A program made the position numbers and the translations under genes. A stretch of DNA of 45,705 nt from Actinomycetota bacterium (GTDB lineage Bacteria > Actinomycetota > CADDZG01 > WHSQ01): assembly GCA_009377815.1 (NCBI GenBank), contig WHTI01000012.1, positions 1 to 45,705 of the forward strand, given 5' to 3'. Shown piece after piece: positions 1,801 through 12,824 of this stretch. Within the stretch, counting starts at the first letter, position 1, and the number at the start of each line of letters is the position of its first letter. The notes under the pieces were generated by a model, which worked only from the letters and a program-made list of their open reading frames with translations, was not told the origin of the DNA and did no database searches.

Positions 1801-3681
1801 TCATCCTCTCCCGTTCTGGGGGCCCGGTGAGTCCGCGTGGAGGACGGAGTGCACCGCTTCGGCGACCGCCGCCGGAATCCCGGGGATGGCGGCCAACTCC
1901 TCGAGCGAAGCTTCGCGCATCCGCTTGACCGAACCAAAGACCCTCAGCATTTTCTTCCGTCGGGCAGGCCCCAAACCGGGCACATCGTCGAGGATCGAGC
2001 GGGTCATGCTCTTGCCGCGGCGCTTCCGGTGGTAATCAAGGGCGAAGCGGTGAGCCTCGTCACGGATCTGTTGAAGCAGGTAGAGGGCCTCGGAACCGCG
2101 CGGTATGACGATCGGGTCCGGGCGATCGGGAAGGAAGACCTCCTCCATACGCTTTGCGAGCGACACGGTGGTGACGTCCTGGATCCCCAGGTCCTCCATC
2201 GCTTCGACTGCACGGCCGAGCTGACCCTTGCCGCCGTCGATAACAACGAGGTTCGGCGGATAGGCGAACCGTCGCTTGGTTTCGGTCGGTGTGTCGCGTT
2301 CCTCTTTGAAACGGGCGAACCGCCGGGAGATGACCTCGTGCATGTTGGCGAAGTCGTCCTGGCCCTCTCCCCATTTGATCGCGAAGCGCCGGTAGTCGGA
2401 GCGCTTGGGCAGACCGTCCTCGAAGACGACCATAGAACCGACCGCCTCGCTCGTACCCGTGTTCGAGATGTCGTAGCACTCGATCCGCAGCGGTGCCTCG
2501 GACATACCGATGGCGTCCTGCAGCTCCTTCAGCTGGCGACTCCGCGCCGCAAAGTCGCTCGATCGCTTGAGCCGGTGCCGCGAGAACGCCTGCTTGGCGT
2601 TCTCGGTGACGGTGTCTAGCAGTGCTCGTTTCTCGCCGCGTAGCGGAACACGCACCGAGACCTTCGAGCCCCGCTGCTCGGCCATCCACTTCTGGATCAG
2701 ATCCAACTCGTCGGGATCGTCCGGAACCAGGACCTGCTTGGGGATCTCGTTGTCGACATACAGGCGTTCCACGAATCGGGCGAGCAGCTCCGGGGTGCTG
2801 AGGTCCTCGACCTTGTCCACGATGAACCCTTTGCGTCCGGTGACCCGACCGCGCCGCACGAAGAAGACCTGGAATGCAGCCTCGAGGTCGTCCTCGACGA
2901 AGCCGATGACGTCCATCTCCTCCTTCTCGTTCGAGACCATCTGCTGCCGCTCGATCGCCTTGCTCACGTTCACGAGCTGGTCCCTAAACTTGGCCGCGAC
3001 CTCGAACTCTTCGCGGGATGCGGCCGACTTCATCTGCTCCTCGAGTCGCTTCAGCACCGGCTTGGTGTTCCCATCGAGGAAATCGCACAGTTCATCGACG
3101 ATCCTGCGGTGCTCCTCCGGGTCGACCGCTCCGACACAGGGGCCTGCGCAGCGCTCGATGTCGTAAAGAAGGCAGGGGCGATTCCGCCGCCGGCAGCGAT
3201 CGAAAACCCCTTGCGAACAGGTCCGCATGGGGAACGTCCGCAGGAGGAGGTCGAGGGTGTCGCGGATGGCGTAGGCGTGCGCGAACGGCCCGTAGTACCT
3301 GACGCCCTTGCGTTTCGCTCCGCGCATCACTCTCGCCCGGGGGATGTCCTCGTTGAGGGTGATAGCCAGGTACGGGTAGCTCTTGTCGTCCCGGTAGCGG
3401 ACGTTGTACCGGGGACGGTGTTCCTTGATCAGGTTCAGCTCGAGATGGAGGGCCTCGACCTCGCTGTCGGTGACGATCCACTCCACGTCCGAGGCTGCCT
3501 CGACCATCGCCATCGTGCGCGGATGGAGATCCGTTGCGAAGTAGTTGGACAGGCGCGAGCGGAGCGTCTTGGCCTTCCCCACGTAGACCACCCTGCCGTG
3601 AGGGTCGCGGAATAGGTAGACGCCCGGCTTCGTGGGGATCGAGCCCGTCTCCGGCCTCTGGATGCGAGTAGCTGAGATCAT
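1801..3681 (-). CDS. uvrC: Excinuclease ABC subunit C
   Basis: A 626-residue UvrC, full length for the family. It makes the two incisions flanking a bulky DNA lesion after UvrAB loading. The N-terminal GIY-YIG nuclease is visible near residues 18-45 (GVYLF then VVYVGKAKTLRSRL). A UVR motif near residue 210 (EFEVAAKFRDQL) contacts UvrB. The C-terminal RNase H-like nuclease includes IECYDISNTGTSEAVGSMVVF and VVIDGGKGQL, and the last 60 residues form helix-hairpin-helix motifs (LDDVPGLGPARRKKML, ELAAIPGIP). The start is the ATG at 3681, 48 bp after the end of the mce operon. I looked for a LexA box in that gap and saw none. It is probably co-transcribed with rapZ, which begins one base after the uvrC stop. 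Confidence 0.97.
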   Translation of the reverse strand: MISATRIQRPETGSIPTKPGVYLFRDPHGRVVYVGKAKTLRSRLSNYFATDLHPRTMAMVEAASDVEWIVTDSEVEALHLELNLIKEHRPRYNVRYRDDKSYPYLAITLNEDIPRARVMRGAKRKGVRYYGPFAHAYAIRDTLDLLLRTFPMRTCSQGVFDRCRRRNRPCLLYDIERCAGPCVGAVDPEEHRRIVDELCDFLDGNTKPVLKRLEEQMKSAASREEFEVAAKFRDQLVNVSKAIERQQMVSNEKEEMDVIGFVEDDLEAAFQVFFVRRGRVTGRKGFIVDKVEDLSTPELLARFVERLYVDNEIPKQVLVPDDPDELDLIQKWMAEQRGSKVSVRVPLRGEKRALLDTVTENAKQAFSRHRLKRSSDFAARSRQLKELQDAIGMSEAPLRIECYDISNTGTSEAVGSMVVFEDGLPKRSDYRRFAIKWGEGQDDFANMHEVISRRFARFKEERDTPTETKRRFAYPPNLVVIDGGKGQLGRAVEAMEDLGIQDVTTVSLAKRMEEVFLPDRPDPIVIPRGSEALYLLQQIRDEAHRFALDYHRKRRGKSMTRSILDDVPGLGPARRKKMLRVFGSVKRMREASLEELAAIPGIPAAVAEAVHSVLHADSPGPQNGRG

Positions 3682-3729: not shown

Positions 3730-5379
3730 TTATGGTCCCGAGGCCGAGCTGACGCCGTCGTACTGAGATGTGTCGGCCTCCCTCGTCACGCTGTGTGCGT
3801 AGAGCCGCCCGCCCGGAAGGTAGAGGAGCGGATCGACCGGGGTGGCGTTGATCCTCACCTCGAAATGGAGGTGATCGCCGGTGCACGAACCGGTGCACCC
3901 AACAAGTCCGAGCACATCTCCCTGCTCGATGACGTCACCGGCCCGGACCGCGAAGCCGGAGAGGTGGGCGTACAGGGTTGCCATGCCGTCGCCGTGGTCG
4001 ACCACGACCGTGTTGCCGTAGTCGGCGTAGTAGTCGGCTCTGATCACCGTGCCCTCGGCGGCCGCGATGACCGGGCTGCCGGTGGCCCCGTCGATATCGA
4101 TGCCCTCGTGCATCCTGTCGTCACGTGGCCCGAAGACGGATGTGATGGGTCCTCTCAGCGGCCAGATAAGCCGGCCGTCGACATCCCCGACATCCGGAAC
4201 CTCGGGGATCTCGGCAAAGGCTTCCAGTGGGTTGGCCGCGGCCCACTGCTCCAGGGCGTTCACCAGCGACCGAACCGTGGCCGAAGAGTTCTTGGGCTCG
4301 CACTTCGTCGGCGCGAACGGATCGCGCTCGCCCCGCTGGTGCGGGAATCGCTCGTACTCGAAGGGGACCTTGTACTTGCACGGCCAGCTGGCCTCGACGT
4401 TGTCGGTGATGAGGCCGATCCTGATCCGGTAGAGGCGGCTGCCGTCCGGGTTCTCCCACGGGATCGACGCGTCCTCTACCGCCTTCAGGAACTGGGGCAC
4501 GTACTTGAGCGACTTGATGATGAGTTCGTCCTTGTTCACTTTCTGGAACGTTGTGAAATCGGCCAGCTCCGCGATCCCCCCCGCCAGGTCCCCCCTGTGC
4601 TCGGTGAAGAAGGCGATCCCCTCACGTGCGAGCCGGTCGTTCGCGGCGAAGAACGCCCGCAGTTCCTCGGGCTCGTCCCCGAGCCCCGCCAGGACCGTGT
4701 CGGCCGCTTTGATCGCCGCGGTGAAGTTCTCCTTGGTCTTGAGGAACGCGGCGCCCGACTTGGTAGCCGCGTCGAGAAGGCTCTTCTGCTCGGGAGCAAC
4801 GTCGGCGAACGTCTCGGACAAGGTCCCGAGAGATTCGAGGAGTACCCTGATGTCGTCGCTGGAATCTCCGATGCCCTCGTTCAGATTCTCCACCAGGTTC
4901 GCCGTCTGATCCGCCGGGACGTCGGCCAGGACGCGGTCGAGCGTCTTGAGTAGTGCCTGGAAGTCGACGGGAAGGCTGGTCTGCTCCCGTTCGATGACCT
5001 CGCCATCCGCGAGCATCTCATCGCCGGCGTCATCAAGAGGGGTCAGGTTCACGAACTGTTCGCCCACCGCGCTCTTGCTCTGGACGTTCGCCTCGAGGTC
5101 GGCCGGGATCCTGTCGCGCCACTCGGAATCGATCAAGAGCGTGATCGACACCCCGTCTTCCGTGAGCTCTAGATCCCCGACGCGACCGACCAGCACTCCA
5201 CGGTAGGTCACTTCCTGGTTGGTGAATACGCCGCCGGTGTCGGCGAAGTCCGCGGTGACGACCAGCGGGTTGGCGAAGAAGGTCGACCCGACGACCTGCG
5301 TGACAACCCAGCCGAGCATGAGTATGCCGAGAAGAACGACGCTGATGAGGTTGATCCGAAGCCGGCGGTCGATCCTCAT
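3730..5379 (-). CDS. MCE protein fused to a C-terminal M23 (LytM-type) peptidase
   Basis: The last gene of the six-gene mce operon, 549 residues. Residues about 8-30 are a membrane anchor (INLISVVLLGILMLGWVV). Residues about 38-120 are the MCE/MlaD domain, with VTYRGVLVGRVGDL and GEQFVNLTPL. A helical stretch runs to about 300, followed by a linker with two cysteines. From about 405 to 520 there is an M23 metallopeptidase: WPLRGPITSVFGPR, then MHEGIDID (His424 and Asp428), YAHLS (His472) and GDHLHFEVR (His503 and His505). These match the zinc ligands and catalytic histidines of LytM-like endopeptidases, so activity is plausible. The ATG overlaps the stop of the lipoprotein gene. The inferred job is to open or bind peptidoglycan around a lipid-transport tunnel. 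A usual MceF-type protein has no such domain, so I regard the architecture as unusual. Confidence 0.93.
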   Translation of the reverse strand: MRIDRRLRINLISVVLLGILMLGWVVTQVVGSTFFANPLVVTADFADTGGVFTNQEVTYRGVLVGRVGDLELTEDGVSITLLIDSEWRDRIPADLEANVQSKSAVGEQFVNLTPLDDAGDEMLADGEVIEREQTSLPVDFQALLKTLDRVLADVPADQTANLVENLNEGIGDSSDDIRVLLESLGTLSETFADVAPEQKSLLDAATKSGAAFLKTKENFTAAIKAADTVLAGLGDEPEELRAFFAANDRLAREGIAFFTEHRGDLAGGIAELADFTTFQKVNKDELIIKSLKYVPQFLKAVEDASIPWENPDGSRLYRIRIGLITDNVEASWPCKYKVPFEYERFPHQRGERDPFAPTKCEPKNSSATVRSLVNALEQWAAANPLEAFAEIPEVPDVGDVDGRLIWPLRGPITSVFGPRDDRMHEGIDIDGATGSPVIAAAEGTVIRADYYADYGNTVVVDHGDGMATLYAHLSGFAVRAGDVIEQGDVLGLVGCTGSCTGDHLHFEVRINATPVDPLLYLPGGRLYAHSVTREADTSQYDGVSSASGP

Positions 5380-6389
5380 GAGCCCTCACCGGGGACGTCC
5401 CCTTGCTCTCCGTTCGTGTCGCAGCTGGCGAGGATCTCACACAGGACCGCGTCGGCCTGGATGTAGTCCCCCTGTCCGTTCGAGCCCGGACCTCCACCGA
5501 AGCTCTTCGGGAAGAGGGCGAAGAACCTCGTGAGCTTCTTCAGATCGGACCGGAGGACTCCCTCGTTCGAAGCAAGGGCACGGAGGATCGGCTCGAGAGC
5601 GATGAATTGGCGATTGATGGCCGACTGGTGTTTGGTGAGGAACCTGGCGTTGACCTCGCCGAACCGGTTCAGCGAACTGAACAGAGGACCGAGGCGGTCG
5701 CCTTGCTCGGCGAGGAGCGCGTTGGCGGTCTCGAGCGAGTCGAGGAACGAGTTTAGGGTTGACTCGTTCGCGTCGAGCGTCTGACTCGCAGAGCCGAGGC
5801 TGTCGATCGCGGCCGCGATGTCGTTCCGGCGATCGGCGAGTACACCGGTGAACTTCTCGAGCTCCTCGAGCGTGTCCCCGAAGCGCTCGCCGCGTCCCTG
5901 GAGGATGAGGGCCTGGGCGTGCGTGAACCGGTTGAGGTCCTCGAGTCCACCCCCACCGATGAGCCCAGCGACGTCCGCGAGGAAGGTCTCGACGTCGACG
6001 CGCTTCTGGGTCATCGCGAGCGGGATGGTGGCCCCCGACTCGTCGAGGAACGGCGGACCCTGGGTCGATGGAAGGAGCTCGATGAACTGCTCGCCGAGGA
6101 GTGACGTCTGCCGAGCTATCGCCTGGAGCCCCTCGATCGGCACATCTACCCCCTCCTCGATCATCATCTCGACGCGGGCGACCATGTCGCCGTCCTGCAG
6201 CACGAGCGAGATATCGGTCACGAGGCCGACCTTCACGTCCTGGATCTGGACCGTGCCCCTCTCGACCAGGTCTCCGACGTCGGAGAAGTAGGCCACGATC
6301 TCGTTCCCGGCAACGGGCCCCACGAGCCCGCCGCACGACGACGTGACGAGAGCGGCTCCGAGGGTTGCGATCAGGAGGCGGGTTCTCAT
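5376..6389 (-). CDS. MCE-family lipoprotein (MceE position)
   Basis: A 337-residue MCE protein and the fifth gene of the operon. The N-terminus MRTRLLIATLGAALVTSSCG is a lipoprotein signal with the candidate lipidated Cys19; the lipobox is slightly atypical, with Thr at -3. The MCE domain follows at about 28-110 (VQIQDVKVGLVTDI and LLGEQFIELLP), and then a long helical region. In mycobacterial mce operons the fifth MCE gene is likewise the lipoprotein (MceE/LprK), so position and type agree. I set the start at the ATG at 6389, which overlaps the upstream stop in an ATGA; the frame extends upstream but without a signal peptide. The protein would be anchored on the outer face of the membrane and contribute one subunit to a hexameric lipid-transfer tunnel. 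Confidence 0.92.
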   Translation of the reverse strand: MRTRLLIATLGAALVTSSCGGLVGPVAGNEIVAYFSDVGDLVERGTVQIQDVKVGLVTDISLVLQDGDMVARVEMMIEEGVDVPIEGLQAIARQTSLLGEQFIELLPSTQGPPFLDESGATIPLAMTQKRVDVETFLADVAGLIGGGGLEDLNRFTHAQALILQGRGERFGDTLEELEKFTGVLADRRNDIAAAIDSLGSASQTLDANESTLNSFLDSLETANALLAEQGDRLGPLFSSLNRFGEVNARFLTKHQSAINRQFIALEPILRALASNEGVLRSDLKKLTRFFALFPKSFGGGPGSNGQGDYIQADAVLCEILASCDTNGEQGDVPGEGS

Positions 6390-7672
6390 CGGCCCGCTCC
6401 CTTCACGAACCATTGCGCGAGCAGTTCGGCAAGTTGCTTCTCCCCCACCTGCGCGGCGAGGTCGAGCACAGCTTGCTGTGCCGACGCGTCCAGGGTGGAG
6501 GTGATGCCGGGGAGATCGGCACAGATCGGGATCAGCGCATCCACGAGATACGCGAGGTCGTCTTTGTAGGTCTCGGGGAAGAACGCCATCAGCGTGTCCC
6601 GAAGCTGCTGAAGGGTCGCCTGTGGGCTGAGAACCAGGAACGACTGGATCAATGCATCGATACGGTTGCAGGCGATCGTGTCTCTCGTGTCGATGCGGTA
6701 GTTGTACTCGGACCCAGGAGCGCCCGGGGCGACCTGGCGACCGCTGTACGCGAAGAGCCCCTTGCCACTCGAGTTCGTTGCGCCGAGCCCCTGCGCGACC
6801 ACGTTGCTCCACTTGACGCCGCGGAGTAGTTCTCCCTGCTTCGCGTTGACCCGTCGCAGGACCCTCGCGAGGTTCCCGAATGCGTCACCGAGATCGTCTC
6901 CGGAGTCGGCGATCAGTTGCGACGCTTCCTCGGAGAAGAACGCGAGGTTCTCGATCGTCCCCTCCAGGTTCTCCTGGTCGCCGACGAGGGCTTCGGTCAC
7001 CAGCTGCAGGCGCTCGTTCACGATCACGATCTCACTCGATCGATCGGCCAGGGCCACGAACAGCTGATCGAGGTTCTCGATCAGTCCCGTTATGTCCTGG
7101 TTGGAATCGGCGAGGTTCTGCAGAACCGAGGACGACGACTCGAGTGCTTTGGCCAGGTTTCCCGACTTGCCATCGATCGTCTCGTCGAGGTTGATGATCA
7201 GCTCCGCGAGCGGGCCGTGCTCCTCCCCTTCCTTCGGCTCGAGCGCCGAGAGCAACCCCTGCAACTGAGTCAGGACGTCGTCGAGCTCGGCGGGGATCTG
7301 GGTGCGATCGAGGGGGATGTGGTCTCCGTCGGCCAGGGCCGGGCCCCCCTCGTACGCGGGGAACAGCTGCACGTAGCGGTCGGCGATGACCGTGATCGGG
7401 ATGATGCCCAGCGTCGCAGCGGCCGGGATGCGAACGTCCTCGTCGATCTCCATGGTCAGGTGAACGGCATCCGGTCCCGGCTCGACACCGGTGATGACTC
7501 CGACCTCGACCCCGCGGACCATTACTCGTCCTCCCTCGAAGAGGTTGGGGGCTTGTTCGACCTCGGCGGTGACCTCGTAGGTCCCGTTGGAGGACGCCAC
7601 GGCCTGATATCCGAAGAAGGCCGCGACGAGCACGGCGAGGACGACGGCGATGGAAGTCACTCTTGTCCTCAT
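6386..7672 (-). CDS. MCE-family protein, fourth in the operon
   Basis: A 428-residue MCE/MlaD protein. The N-terminal anchor lies at about 4-25 (VTSIAVVLAVLVAAFFGYQAVA). The MCE domain spans about 30-110, with VMVRGVEVGVITGV and ADRYVQLFP. A long helical region of repeated short leucine and acidic patterns follows to about 300, then a C-terminal part with two cysteines (DTIACNRIDAL, IPICADLPG). The ATG at 7672 overlaps the preceding stop in an ATGA, as elsewhere in this operon, which decides the start. The helical region is expected to form part of the needle that carries lipids across the periplasm-like space. The substrate cannot be read from the sequence. Confidence 0.92.
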   Translation of the reverse strand: MRTRVTSIAVVLAVLVAAFFGYQAVASSNGTYEVTAEVEQAPNLFEGGRVMVRGVEVGVITGVEPGPDAVHLTMEIDEDVRIPAAATLGIIPITVIADRYVQLFPAYEGGPALADGDHIPLDRTQIPAELDDVLTQLQGLLSALEPKEGEEHGPLAELIINLDETIDGKSGNLAKALESSSSVLQNLADSNQDITGLIENLDQLFVALADRSSEIVIVNERLQLVTEALVGDQENLEGTIENLAFFSEEASQLIADSGDDLGDAFGNLARVLRRVNAKQGELLRGVKWSNVVAQGLGATNSSGKGLFAYSGRQVAPGAPGSEYNYRIDTRDTIACNRIDALIQSFLVLSPQATLQQLRDTLMAFFPETYKDDLAYLVDALIPICADLPGITSTLDASAQQAVLDLAAQVGEKQLAELLAQWFVKGAGR

Positions 7673-8769
7673 CGGAGCGGCCCCGGAGCGTAGGCGGGTA
7701 CGGACAGCGGCTGGGTTCCCTTCACGGGAACCTCCGGGACCTCGGGGGTGCCCCACGGGACGCAGACGTCTTCGGTCGTGATCGCGCAGACGTGGCCCTC
7801 GACGAAGCGGCCGAACTTGAGCGGGCGCCCGAAGAGTTCCTGGGAGACCGCAAGCTGACCGAGGGCCGTGTCGATGGAGGCGTACTCCTGATTGAGAACG
7901 GAAAGCACCGAGCTGAGGTCGCTGACGCCGGCGTCGAACGAGCCCCGCGCCACCTGCAGAAGGAGTCCGAGGTTCTTGGTGAGGTCGTTCGTCGCTGCAA
8001 GCAGCGAGCTCGTCGTCGCCCGCTCATCGGCAAGCGTGTCGAAGACCTCCGCCGAACTCTTCAGGATCGCGTCGAAGTCCTTGTCGCTCGCGGCCAGCGT
8101 GTCCGAGACCTTCTCCGCGTTCCTGAGCAGCGCCGAGATCTCGGGGCCCTTGTCCTCGAGTACGACGCCCGCCTCGTCGAGGCTGACGATCAAGCGTCCG
8201 AGCTCCTCCTTGGACGCCCCGACCGTGTTGGCGAGGACCCCCAGCATCTTGCGCAGCGCCCTCTTGTCGATGGCGGCGAGCTTCTCGGTCCCCTCCGTGG
8301 CGGCCTGGTGGATCTCGTAGGGGATGCGCGTTTGATCGAGCGGGATCACGTCTCCGGACGAGAGATAGCCGCCGGTCGCCGAAGCCGGGTTTCCTTCTCC
8401 AGCGGCGGCCGTGAGGTAGGACTTCGGCATCTGAAGGTCGATGAACTTCTGCCCCAGAAGCGTCTTGAGCTTGACCTCCAGCCGGGTTTCCTCCGGCAGC
8501 TGGACGTCTCTTTCGATCTCCATCTTGATCCGGGCGGCGTCTTCGGTGAGGACTATCTGGGTAACCGTTCCGACCTTTACTCCGGCGACCCGAACCTCGT
8601 TCCCCGGGATCAATCCGGCGGCATCCTGGAGGTCGGCGTAGATGGGATACACGCCCTTGATGAAGCTGAACCTGTTGACCGAGAACGCGAGGCCGACACC
8701 GAGTCCGATCGCGAGGATCGAGATGATCCCCACGATCCACGGAGACCTCTCCCTGACCGATTTCCTCAT
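7669..8769 (-). CDS. MCE-family protein, third in the operon
   Basis: A 366-residue MCE/MlaD protein. The start MRKSVRER at 8769 overlaps the previous stop in an ATGA. The membrane anchor is at about 10-32 (WIVGIISILAIGLGVGLAFSV). The MCE domain at about 38-115 has EVRVAGVKVGTVTQI and LLGQKFIDLQMP. Helices with heptad-like leucines occupy about 150-300. A short C-terminal tail carries two cysteines (HVCAITTEDVCVPWG) and ends in a proline-rich stretch. The pattern of anchor, MCE barrel, helices and cysteine tail is shared with its neighbours and fits a hetero-hexameric assembly built from all six genes. Confidence 0.92.
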   Translation of the reverse strand: MRKSVRERSPWIVGIISILAIGLGVGLAFSVNRFSFIKGVYPIYADLQDAAGLIPGNEVRVAGVKVGTVTQIVLTEDAARIKMEIERDVQLPEETRLEVKLKTLLGQKFIDLQMPKSYLTAAAGEGNPASATGGYLSSGDVIPLDQTRIPYEIHQAATEGTEKLAAIDKRALRKMLGVLANTVGASKEELGRLIVSLDEAGVVLEDKGPEISALLRNAEKVSDTLAASDKDFDAILKSSAEVFDTLADERATTSSLLAATNDLTKNLGLLLQVARGSFDAGVSDLSSVLSVLNQEYASIDTALGQLAVSQELFGRPLKFGRFVEGHVCAITTEDVCVPWGTPEVPEVPVKGTQPLSVPAYAPGPLR

Positions 8770-9761
8770 GGCACGTACCTCGTGCCGCACGTGCCGGAAT
8801 CGTCCCTACAGACATTGATCAGATGCTGGTTGCCCCATTCCCCGTAGTTGGTCGTCCGCTGGACGGCCTCCAGGAATGTCGGCAAGCGCTTCACGATCTT
8901 GCGGAGATCGTCTCGCCGGTCGTTGATCGCGTCGAGCAGGATCGCGAGGTCGTCGATCTCGGCCTCGATCAACTCGTCGTTGTCGCGAACGATCTGCCCG
9001 AGCTTCCGCGCGGACACGTCGAGGTTGACCAGCGCCCCTCTAAGATCCTCCCGGCTCGCCGAGAGGTCGGTGAGGAACGAGCCCATGTCCTCGAGAGAGG
9101 CGCGGAGTTGAGCGTCTCTAGACGACAGGTTCGATGTCACGGCGGTGACACCCTCGAGGAGAACGTCGAGCTCTTGATCCTTGGATGCCAGCGTGTCGGA
9201 TATATCGGCGAGGTTGGTGAACAGGCTCGCGGTGACGTCCTCTCGACCCTTGAGGGCGGCTAGGACCTCTTTGGTGACGATGTTGATGTCCTCGGAACTC
9301 GTCGAACGGATCAACGGGCGCAGGCCGTTGAAGAGGATCGAGAGGTCGAAGGCCGGCTCGGTACGTTCAAGGGGGATGAGATCGCCGTCCTGGAGAAGTC
9401 CCGAAACGCTCGACTCCGGGTCCTCGACGAGGGAGATCATCCGCTGCCCGATGAGGTTGCGGAAGCGGACCTCTGCACCAACCCCCGCAGGCAGCTCGGT
9501 ACCCTCATCGATCGACAGTTCGACCAGCGCCATTCCCTCGTCTACCGAGATCTCCTCCACCCGGCCTATCGTTACCCCGGCGGCTTTGACGACATCTCCC
9601 TGAAGCAATCCGGTGGCGTCCTCGAACTGCGCGGTGATCGTGTAGGGCGACGCGAAGAACTGGAAGTTACCGATGATCGCGGCGAGCCACGACGTGACGA
9701 TCAACGTCACGATAGTGAAGATCCCCAGTTTGACGGCCGTCCAGCGGAAGCCCGGGATCAT
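8766..9761 (-). CDS. MCE-family protein, second in the operon
   Basis: A 331-residue MCE/MlaD protein, starting at the ATG at 9761 inside an ATGA overlap with the first mce gene. The anchor lies at about 8-30 (AVKLGIFTIVTLIVTSWLAAIIG). The MCE domain spans about 36-115, with VVKAAGVTIGRVEEI and LIGQRMISLVEDP. A helical region runs to about 300 (repeats such as LEDMGSFLTDLSASREDL), and a short tail carries two cysteines (NVCRDDSGTCGTRYVP). It has the length and organisation of mycobacterial MceB-D-type subunits. It is co-transcribed with the other five genes; no promoter is visible at its start. Confidence 0.92.
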   Translation of the reverse strand: MIPGFRWTAVKLGIFTIVTLIVTSWLAAIIGNFQFFASPYTITAQFEDATGLLQGDVVKAAGVTIGRVEEISVDEGMALVELSIDEGTELPAGVGAEVRFRNLIGQRMISLVEDPESSVSGLLQDGDLIPLERTEPAFDLSILFNGLRPLIRSTSSEDINIVTKEVLAALKGREDVTASLFTNLADISDTLASKDQELDVLLEGVTAVTSNLSSRDAQLRASLEDMGSFLTDLSASREDLRGALVNLDVSARKLGQIVRDNDELIEAEIDDLAILLDAINDRRDDLRKIVKRLPTFLEAVQRTTNYGEWGNQHLINVCRDDSGTCGTRYVP

Positions 9762-11014
9762 CCGTCCCCCCCGGCGTCCAAGAGCAGGCGTTCGGCCGGT
9801 TCCAGCAAGAGATGTGACAGCGCAGGATCCACGATCCGCTTCGTGTACTTGCGGATCAGCGCGGTGAGATCGTCGACCGAGAGGGTGGTCACGGATCCGG
9901 CCCCGAAGGCGTTGGGATCCCCCGGCTCGTCTGTGTGGGGCCCCTCGCCCTTCGAGTACAGCCCGCGGGACTCGAGACCCGGCGGGACGTAGACCTGCCA
10001 GCAGACCATGTTCGCTTCGAACTCGCCGGCGCACGGCTGTGACAGCCCCGAGTTCCAGATGGTTGCGAATGCTTCGAGCTGCCTGATCAAAGACACGAGA
10101 GCGTCTGAGCGCGGAGCCACTATCTCAAGGACATCGGCACCGTCTTCGATCAACCTCCCGAAGGACTCTTCGGTCTGGATCTGGAACGTTGCGAACTGGT
10201 CGAGGAACACCGGGACGCTCGCGTTCGATGCCCGGAATTCCGGAGCGGCACCCACTAATGCTTGGTTCGCGGAATCGAGCGACGAGAGGAACGAGAGCAG
10301 ATCGGTGTCGTTGTCGTCGAGCCATTGAGAGAACTCTCTGAGTTGCCGGAGCGACAGGTCCAGCTCGTCGGAGCGCGAGTTGACCGCTACTAGGGCCCTA
10401 TAGCCGTCATCGATCGCCGTCGCGGCCGACTCTTCGGAACCAGAGAAGCCATCGGCGACGCTCTTGAGCACCCGCGCCAGCTGGTCGAGGGGCACCGAAG
10501 AGATCAGGTCGTGGCCGAGTTGCATGGCTCTTTCGAACTCGAGCGGCTCAACCGTGTTGGCGTCGGGGATCTCGCTTCCTTCACCGAGCAAGTCGCCTGA
10601 GGGGAACTCGGGTGGGATGAGCTCGATCCACTTCTGTCCGAACACCGTCTTGGACCGGATCTCGGCGATCGAGTCGGCGGGGATGTCGTAGGCGGGATCG
10701 AGGAGCATCTCGATGCGGGTGGTGTTGTCCGGTCCGGCGACGATGTCTCCGATGGAGCCCACCAGCACGCCTCGGATCTTGACGTCGCCGCCGACGGGGA
10801 GCTGCTGCCCGACGCCGGGGGCCGAGAACACCGCGTCGACGGGGGTGCCACTGCGGAATCCACCCTTGAGGAACACCCAGGTGAGGCCCGTCACGCCGGA
10901 GAAGAGAAGGATGGCAACGAGGCCGAGCGCGATGCGACGAGGTCTGCCGCGATCCGCGTATGGAGAGTCCTTCACCCCGCCCCCTCGTCCCTTATCCACC
11001 CGTCGCTCCGTCAC
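9758..11014 (-). CDS. MCE-family protein, first in the operon
   Basis: A 418-residue MCE/MlaD protein that opens the operon. An arginine-rich cytoplasmic head precedes the anchor at about 27-49 (RIALGLVAILLFSGVTGLTWVFL). The MCE domain follows (VKIRGVLVGSIGDI, VFGQKWIELIPPEF), then helices and a C-terminal segment with two cysteines (QPCAGEFEANMVCWQV). The start is uncertain. GTG codons occur at residues 1, 6 and 14, and the residue-6 codon has a good GGAG six bases upstream. In classical mce operons two YrbE permease genes precede the first MCE gene. Here the upstream neighbour is an unrelated secreted protein separated by a strong hairpin, so any permeases and the ATPase must be encoded elsewhere. 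Confidence 0.9.
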   Translation of the reverse strand: MTERRVDKGRGGGVKDSPYADRGRPRRIALGLVAILLFSGVTGLTWVFLKGGFRSGTPVDAVFSAPGVGQQLPVGGDVKIRGVLVGSIGDIVAGPDNTTRIEMLLDPAYDIPADSIAEIRSKTVFGQKWIELIPPEFPSGDLLGEGSEIPDANTVEPLEFERAMQLGHDLISSVPLDQLARVLKSVADGFSGSEESAATAIDDGYRALVAVNSRSDELDLSLRQLREFSQWLDDNDTDLLSFLSSLDSANQALVGAAPEFRASNASVPVFLDQFATFQIQTEESFGRLIEDGADVLEIVAPRSDALVSLIRQLEAFATIWNSGLSQPCAGEFEANMVCWQVYVPPGLESRGLYSKGEGPHTDEPGDPNAFGAGSVTTLSVDDLTALIRKYTKRIVDPALSHLLLEPAERLLLDAGGDG

Positions 11015-11091: not shown

Positions 11092-11655
11092 CTACTGACC
11101 GATGATGACGTAGTCACCACTGCCCTCGCCGCCGTCCCACCCGGTGCAGGTGAAGACGAGCTCCGACGGGAACACGCTGAGACCATTCCCCAGTGCAACC
11201 GAGAAGTTGGGGTTGGTCGCGTCGGTGCGGAAGTTCTGAACCGGTGCCGGACCGATGATGGTATCCAGATCAGGCGCGGTAACCGTCAGCATCGCGTCGG
11301 TCCCCGTGAGCAGGATCCCCGTGATCACGTTGTCGGCTCCGGCGGCCACAGTAGTGCTGAATGGGCGGAAGGGGTGGGTCGTGTTGCAGACCCCGGTGCC
11401 GTAGAAGCCACCGCCGCCACCGTACGTACGAACGTCCACCGCACCGGAGCTACCGGGAGCGGAAAGAAGTCCCATGCTGGCAACCGGCGAAGCCGAGATG
11501 TTCTGGCCGTTGGAGGCCGCGATCTTGACCTTGCCCTTGACCTTGACGCTCTGCGTTGCTGCCTGGACCACCGGAGCGCCGATCAGCGCGATCGCTGCGA
11601 TACCAGCCACCACCGCCAACCACGACTTCCGGGTACTGCGCTTTGTGCTCTCCAC
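11092..11655 (-). CDS. Secreted protein of unknown function
   Basis: A 187-residue protein I do not recognise. Residues 1-33 form a Sec signal peptide: a charged start, a hydrophobic core (AVVAGIAAIALIGAPVV) and an AQA-like cleavage site near AATQS. The mature part is rich in Gly, Thr, Ser and Val, with a poly-glycine patch (YGGGGGFYG) and only two cysteines (GVCNTTH and VFTCTGWDG) that could form a disulfide. It is predicted to be mostly beta-structure. The GTG start at 11655 is supported by a strong Shine-Dalgarno, AAGGGAGGT, six bases upstream. It lies alone between a membrane-protein gene and a hairpin. Function unknown; a surface or envelope role is only inference. Confidence 0.8.
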   Translation of the reverse strand: MESTKRSTRKSWLAVVAGIAAIALIGAPVVQAATQSVKVKGKVKIAASNGQNISASPVASMGLLSAPGSSGAVDVRTYGGGGGFYGTGVCNTTHPFRPFSTTVAAGADNVITGILLTGTDAMLTVTAPDLDTIIGPAPVQNFRTDATNPNFSVALGNGLSVFPSELVFTCTGWDGGEGSGDYVIIGQ

Positions 11656-11745: not shown

Positions 11746-12153
11746 CTAGCCAAGCAGGGTCCCGCCGCCAGGGGTCGAATGCCTGATGCGACCTATGGTC
11801 GCCATACAGACCCAAACGATGAGAGACGAGACGAATCCGGCGGCGATCAACAGCATGCCGCCCGCCAGCGCCGCGTCCAGGAGTGGAACGATCACGCCGG
11901 CGAGGATGAGGCGCCAGAAGCGGTGGTTGCCCGGTTTCTGAGGGTCCTGGACCCAAGGGGATCCCGGTTCCCGGGCCGCACCCCACATGTAAACGAGGCC
12001 GAGGAGAAAAGCGGCGAGGAAATAGACGCCGGCCTTGAGCCGATCCTCCTGAACGACGGTCGAGATCCTGAAGACGCTTGCGGCGACGAGTCCGGCGAAG
12101 ACCAGTCCCCCGATCCCGAAGAATCTCAAGCGGGCGGCTCCTTGGGTACTCAA
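11746..12153 (-). CDS. Small membrane protein downstream of trmD
   Basis: A 135-residue hydrophobic protein of no recognised family. About four membrane segments can be seen: FFGIGGLVFAGLVAASVF, GVYFLAAFLLGLVYMWG, LILAGVIVPLLDAALAG, and GGMLLIAAGFVSSLIVWV. A polar loop of about 25 residues (REPGSPWVQDPQKPGN) lies in the middle. The start is probably the TTG at 12153, which overlaps the trmD stop in a TTGA and has a G-rich stretch just upstream. The overlap makes it the last gene of the rpsP-khpA-rimM-trmD operon. Function unknown. Confidence 0.7.
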   Translation of the reverse strand: MSTQGAARLRFFGIGGLVFAGLVAASVFRISTVVQEDRLKAGVYFLAAFLLGLVYMWGAAREPGSPWVQDPQKPGNHRFWRLILAGVIVPLLDAALAGGMLLIAAGFVSSLIVWVCMATIGRIRHSTPGGGTLLG

Positions 12154-12824
12154 TCATCCCCCAGGAGGTCGGGGCGGCGTTCCCGGGTGAGCCGGCGGGA
12201 TTCCTCCTCGCGCCACCGTTCCACCTCCTCGTGATGTCCCGAGAGTAGGACGTCGGGAACCTTCGATCCCCGGAACTCCGCGGGCCTCGTGTACTGGGGG
12301 TGCTCCAGGGTTCCCACCGCGTGCGACTCGGTGGTCAGTGACTCCGGGTTCCCCAGAACCCCGGGGACGAACCGGGACAGGGCCTCGATCACCACGAGGG
12401 CGGGGAGTTCTCCTCCGGCGAGGACGTAGTCCCCTATCGAGATCTCCTCGTCGACCAGTTCGTCGATCACCCTCTGATCGACCCCTTCGTAGCGGCCGCA
12501 CACGAGCACGAGATGCTCTCGGGTCGCTAGTCGCTCGGCTCCCCTGTGATCGAACAGTGAGCCCCGGGGGGACATCAAGACCACGTGCGAGTCTTCTGTG
12601 GTCACCGCTTCGATCGCGGCGAACAGTGGTTCCGGTCTCATGACCATCCCGGCCCCACCGCCGAAGGGAGTGTCGTCGACCGAACGGTGCCGGCCGAGGC
12701 CGTGCTCCCGAAGGTCGTTGAGGGTTACCTCGATCACTCCGTCGGCGATCGCCTTTCCGAGAAGGCTCGTGCTAAGTGGATCCACGAACATGGTGGGAAA
12801 GAGCGTGATGACGTCGATCCGCAT
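12150..12824 (-). CDS. trmD: tRNA (guanine-N1)-methyltransferase TrmD
   Basis: A 224-residue TrmD that methylates G37 of tRNAs with SAM, preventing frameshifts. The N-terminus MRIDVITLFPTMF, the SPRGSLFDHRGAERLA stretch, VCGRYEGVDQRVID and SIGDYVLAGGELPALVVIE form the trefoil-knot SAM site and its surroundings. The catalytic Asp region is present as TLEHPQYTRPAEFRG. The C-terminal helical domain is short but complete (GHHEEVERWREEESRRLT). It lies two bases after rimM in the conserved rpsP-khpA-rimM-trmD order, so translation is probably coupled. Confidence 0.97.
   Translation of the reverse strand: MRIDVITLFPTMFVDPLSTSLLGKAIADGVIEVTLNDLREHGLGRHRSVDDTPFGGGAGMVMRPEPLFAAIEAVTTEDSHVVLMSPRGSLFDHRGAERLATREHLVLVCGRYEGVDQRVIDELVDEEISIGDYVLAGGELPALVVIEALSRFVPGVLGNPESLTTESHAVGTLEHPQYTRPAEFRGSKVPDVLLSGHHEEVERWREEESRRLTRERRPDLLGDD

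Follow-up and report, generated by a model that had tools for sequence, protein, structure and literature searches.

The mce system closest to the locus described here encodes the Mce1 complex, in which a distal portal, some 225 A away from the membrane, is built by six C-termini, and the Mce1F subunit has a disordered end beyond this portal (PMC9882608). Four architectures account for over 97% of 17,282 surveyed MCE proteins; the type II actinobacterial proteins combine MlaD with DUF3407/CUP1 and, as the accessible part of the survey describes them, carry no further Pfam domain, while its rarer architectures may include MCE-M23 proteins (PMC5561183). Peptidases of the LytM and lysostaphin type (2b13, 1qwy, 4qpb) are free or LysM/SH3b-linked enzymes, and a second group of proteins with a LytM domain, the regulators DipM, EnvC and NlpD, lacks the catalytic residues.

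The window, i.e. the whole stretch of 45,705 nucleotides that was analysed, contains a gene in which an MCE subunit and an M23 domain are joined (Table 1). As the preliminary description of this DNA had claimed, one continuous frame, 549 aa long (ATG at 5379, stop at 3730-3732, minus strand), connects a membrane anchor, an MCE domain, a needle and an M23 domain. The plus strand of 3730-5379 was ruled out as the gene, the coding frame being that of the minus strand. The preliminary description had placed the locus correctly; it mentioned neither the strand nor the lack of permease genes nearby, nor that the fusion is very narrowly distributed. MlaD and Peptidase_M23, the two profiles by which it had proposed to check the fusion, match above their curated Pfam cut-offs, and the same is true for Mce4_CUP1; the TIGR00996 match lies above its cut-off as well. 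With MlaD, Mce4_CUP1 and an N-terminal membrane helix, the protein has the features of an actinobacterial MCE subunit, and its domain pair is identical to that of the type II proteins in the accessible part of the survey, to which it adds M23. The domain matches are not due to chance, because of their E-values and because full-length orthologues of the fusion exist in two other assemblies, G001 (82% identity; L053, record JAENWQ010000066.1) and G008 (58% identity; L054, record CALMBW010000018.1).

Table 1. Features of the mceF-M23 gene and its surroundings (positions of the window)
Feature	Position	Strand	Basis or remark
mceF-M23 fusion gene, 549 aa	3730..5379	-	ORF translation, Pfam and TIGR00996
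N-terminal membrane helix, residues about 3-34	upstream of the MCE/MlaD domain	-	hydrophobic sequence and AlphaFold2 model
MCE/MlaD domain, residues 39-114	5038..5265	-	Pfam MlaD 1.2e-15
Mce4_CUP1 helical needle region, residues 121-277	4549..5019	-	Pfam 7.5e-9; collinear with Mce1F up to 313
Portal-like region and linker, residues about 305-402, with Cys334 and Cys360	4174..4467	-	boundaries approximate
Peptidase_M23 domain, residues 422-517, with His424, Asp428, His472, His503 and His505	3829..4116	-	Pfam 3.6e-33, full model
mceE, lipoprotein-like N-terminal signal	5376..6389	-	4-base overlap with mceF
mceD	6386..7672	-	Pfam and junction overlap
mceC	7669..8769	-	Pfam and junction overlap
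mceB	8766..9761	-	Pfam and junction overlap
mceA, first of six; GTG start at 10975 is a guess	9758..10975	-	Pfam and junction overlap
uvrC, 48 bases downstream of mceF; outside the transporter, marks the conserved chromosomal slot	1801..3681	-	
trmD, upstream edge of the mce slot	12150..12824	-	

The earlier assignment of the protein to the MceF type is supported by two results. When the MCE parts of six MceF proteins are combined into a profile, its top match is Mce1F from the solved structure of Mce1 (PDB 8fed chain F), with an E-value of 1.2e-38 compared to 3e-19 for the next subunit, so that Mce1F is the nearest of the six Mce1 subunits; and the gene is the sixth of its cluster, just as that of Mce1F is the last of six. 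The profile aligns residues 2-313 with residues 2-313 of Mce1F without a large gap. Membrane helix, MCE domain and the whole needle are therefore collinear, and the match ends at the short strand that enters the portal past the needle. Where Mce1F continues with its disordered tail, MceF-M23 instead has a folded domain, and the best explanation is that the usual disordered C-terminal tail of MceF has been replaced by a LytM-type M23 domain. Since the alignment is collinear up to the portal, the published Mce1 structure implies that each complex should carry a single M23 domain right beyond the portal, at the distal tip of the tunnel. Homology is the basis for this position, because the single-chain AlphaFold2 model is poor outside the M23 part (pLDDT <50 over most of residues 28-401). 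The expected location at the distal end is supported in this way; that the transport of lipids is linked to remodelling of the wall, as proposed previously, we infer.

The genes mceA to mceF lie at 10975-3730 on the minus strand and every junction between them is a four-base overlap. The stop of mceE and the start of mceF share ATGA, which bears out that the fusion gene is the last one of an mce operon. All six products contain MlaD and CUP1, and an extra domain is present in MceF only. MceE proteins of the LprK type begin like lipoproteins. Between trmD and mceA, a secreted-looking protein of 187 aa without a Pfam match is encoded (11092-11655, minus strand), which has an orthologue (44%) at the equivalent place in G008 (L054:3736-4290). 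Ordinary chromosomal genes are found on the minus strand between 1804 and 42283, namely uvrC, trmD, rimM, ffh, ftsY, smc, mutM, rnc and recG, together with genes for a PEP carboxykinase, an FrhB-like protein and a sulfatase. In G001, a large ORF on the opposite strand (L053:4335-6794, minus) lies between mceF and uvrC, and co-transcription of these two genes is accordingly not a conserved trait.

Whereas the Mce1 cluster has a yrbE pair upstream, no yrbE gene adjoins the mce cluster of the window, whose upstream neighbours are trmD and two unidentified ORFs; it is hence not a complete mce operon in the sense of a yrbE pair lying directly upstream. All four yrbE genes of the window genome are located in tandem on contig C358. 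This contig (L063, G000:C358:1-13245) has the gene order mceG-yrbEA1-yrbEB1-yrbEA2-yrbEB2, followed by a second, M23-free mceA-F set. In the genomes G007 and G019, mceG-yrbEA1-yrbEB1 is directly followed by mce genes that best match the set of the window, and in G028, yrbEB1 at a contig edge directly precedes mce genes that likewise best match this set. In G008, the second mce set comes after yrbEA2-yrbEB2, and mceG-yrbEA1-yrbEB1 has no mce genes after it within the stretch read. Judged by this comparison of gene order, YrbEA1/B1 and MceG are most likely the partners with which the Mce subunits of the window would work. It is also most likely that the six mce genes were relocated together into the slot between trmD and uvrC, before or around the gain of the M23 domain. 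YrbE, MceG and the six mce genes are all present in the genome, and a heterohexamer that moves lipid together with YrbE and MceG is predicted from them. The yrbE genes of G007 (L055:1642-4255) are split over several frames, which suggests frameshift errors or gene decay in this assembly.

AlphaFold2 models the M23 part with confidence (block pLDDT about 80-93). This part superposes on LytM (2b13_A) with an rmsd of 1.6 A and a TM-score by target of 0.82, and on lysostaphin (4qpb) with 1.9 A. A misfit to LytM had been named in the preliminary description as a reason to give up its reading; fold and residues do fit, and together with the full-length Pfam match they identify the domain as a Peptidase_M23. 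The five active-site residues sit exactly at the positions named there. They are shared with the LytM and lysostaphin peptidases, which differ in that MceF-M23 is part of a transporter. The motifs of a competent M23 domain (HxxxD, a further His and HxH) are complete in the window protein and in G001. In G008, the first His of HxH, which we take to correspond to the catalytic His291 of LytM, is lost (H to N) and the three predicted zinc ligands are kept. The stretch in question (L054:11500-11530) reads GDNLHF, HxH being replaced by NLH with the codon AAC (a change of the CAC to AAC type). Because of this loss, peptidase activity is not conserved across all three fusions, and from their residues the M23 domains of the window protein and G001 look competent, that of G008 like a binder.

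The nearest fusion-free relative is the mceF gene of G010, which is 55% identical, lies directly before uvrC and ends in a Pro/Ser-rich tail without M23 (L064:289-1884, G010:C174). The contigs G010:C174 and G010:C72 (L064, L065) carry two similar, non-identical mce clusters, which might reflect a strain mixture or a duplication. A concatenated tree favours grouping G008 with G010 (85-90% support), i.e. a gain of M23 with a later loss in G010; the data do not reject the alternative, a gain after the separation of G010 (AU 0.165, few replicates).

In our opinion, the best explanation, held with middling confidence, is an MceF protein with an M23 tip that cuts or grips the wall. In a heterohexameric MCE transporter for lipids, six Mce subunits would together make up the ring, the needle and the portal. 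The C-terminus of MceF would leave the portal distally and place one M23 domain per complex within the peptidoglycan, where it might cut, or at least grip, the peptide cross-links around the tunnel tip. A tunnel of roughly 200 A could thereby be seated in the wall of an apparently monoderm cell and traverse it, with energy and membrane passage provided by MceG and YrbEA1/B1, encoded elsewhere. The window organism likely has a monoderm wall; in line with this, no match to Omp85 was found in its 96.6% complete genome, and control genomes with an outer membrane did give matches. The chances that the M23 domain is catalytically active and remodels the wall in this organism appear about even. As to the wall-opening or wall-anchoring enzyme that the preliminary description ascribed to the transporter, the fusion, the residues and the operon position hold, and wall opening is what we infer from them. 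Since the catalytic His is lost in G008 and a close relative does without M23, the domain might also have a wall-binding or a lineage-specific accessory role.

It is conceivable, if rather unlikely, that the M23 domain serves as a peptidoglycan-binding anchor or as a regulator of another hydrolase, comparable to EnvC, NlpD and DipM, and that catalysis is not under selection. These three are its nearest relatives in fold and sequence, with no sequence relation to MceF-M23 outside the LytM domain; the best structural match of the model is the LytM domain of DipM, a non-hydrolysing protein, and the LytM domain of EnvC is likewise coupled to an ABC-type membrane complex, FtsEX. The fused domain of G008 suits such a role, as it keeps the predicted zinc ligands without the catalytic His and is still 63% identical to the M23 domain of the window, with dN well under dS. 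However, the window protein and G001 retain every catalytic residue despite a divergence like that of the needle, and DipM and EnvC miss residues that are present in the window protein (the alignment was made for DipM). With all five residues kept, the latter does not resemble a degenerate LytM regulator; the G008 protein lacks one of them.

MceF might also do no more than secrete a resident M23 enzyme and hold it at the membrane, the job of this enzyme being unrelated to lipid transport. A group of M23 proteins in this class is recognisable by the sequence CTGSCTGDHLHFE, and when 39 M23 domains are placed in a tree, whose inner forks are partly weak, the three fused ones fall into a single clade (98/91) within a stand-alone group from the same genome family. 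This makes a resident paralogue the most likely donor of the domain and a single fusion event its most likely origin in MceF. Descent from a class-specific stand-alone group would be expected of a tethered enzyme, as would the occurrence in only two genera and the fact that G010 manages without M23. But M23 proteins of the stand-alone kind are already exported in their own right, and the domain is attached past the portal of a subunit that needs five partners, in a fully overlapping operon. We therefore consider a simple tether unlikely.

Neutral accretion, in which M23 would have replaced a disposable Pro/Ser-rich tail without any selected function, is largely contradicted by the substitution pattern. 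Between the window genome and G001, dS of the M23 part is 0.95 and dN 0.115; dN/dS amounts to 0.12 for M23, 0.11 for the needle, 0.17 for the MCE domain and 0.21 for the linker, compared to 0.61 for the relaxed free tail after M23. The M23 part is thus constrained and about as slow-evolving as the needle. The narrow distribution, the lack of M23 in G010 and the mutated catalytic site of G008 would fit such an accretion, which nevertheless seems very improbable. An assembly or sequencing join of two genes, as might be suspected since all three fusions come from metagenome-assembled genomes, can be dismissed with near certainty, because the same junction occurs in three separate assemblies, without stop or frameshift and with a conserved linker.

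Only three MceF-M23 fusions were detected among 24 genomes of the class and 397 sampled genomes of the Actinomycetota, and they are confined to two genera. Within the phylum, M23 is in frame in three of 32 MceF-like loci, which are exactly the known fusions; the architecture whose genome count had been called for is rare among these genomes. As the best three to five candidates per genome were scored in the large searches, the rarity appears well supported for MceF and less firm for other Mce subunits or distant fusions. Phyla beyond the Actinomycetota were covered by a pattern-based scan and a plasmid search, in which not one of the 72,556 records reaches 80% coverage of the MceF-M23 protein. 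The open-licence literature yielded no published MCE-M23 protein, so the novelty that the preliminary description had made dependent on such reports stands within this literature.

To our knowledge, the role of MCE proteins in those actinobacteria that lack a mycolate outer membrane and the coexistence of a tunnel of >200 A with the wall are open questions. A peptidoglycan-enzyme domain at the portal is a natural fusion and gives a direct indication, open to testing, that the wall is where the tip works, its significance being limited by the very narrow distribution and by one orthologue (G008) that looks inactivated. A dedicated wall-remodelling MCE transporter of a monoderm actinobacterium, whose portal endopeptidase would open the peptidoglycan where the tunnel crosses it and in which lipid transport and cutting would be mechanically coupled, is a tentative and still doubtful extension. 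The fusion suggests that, in a small uncultured lineage of the Actinomycetota, the tunnel acts on the wall with its outer tip or that this tip is held in the wall. If this is true, it would be a rare link of lipid traffic and wall hydrolysis within one polypeptide.
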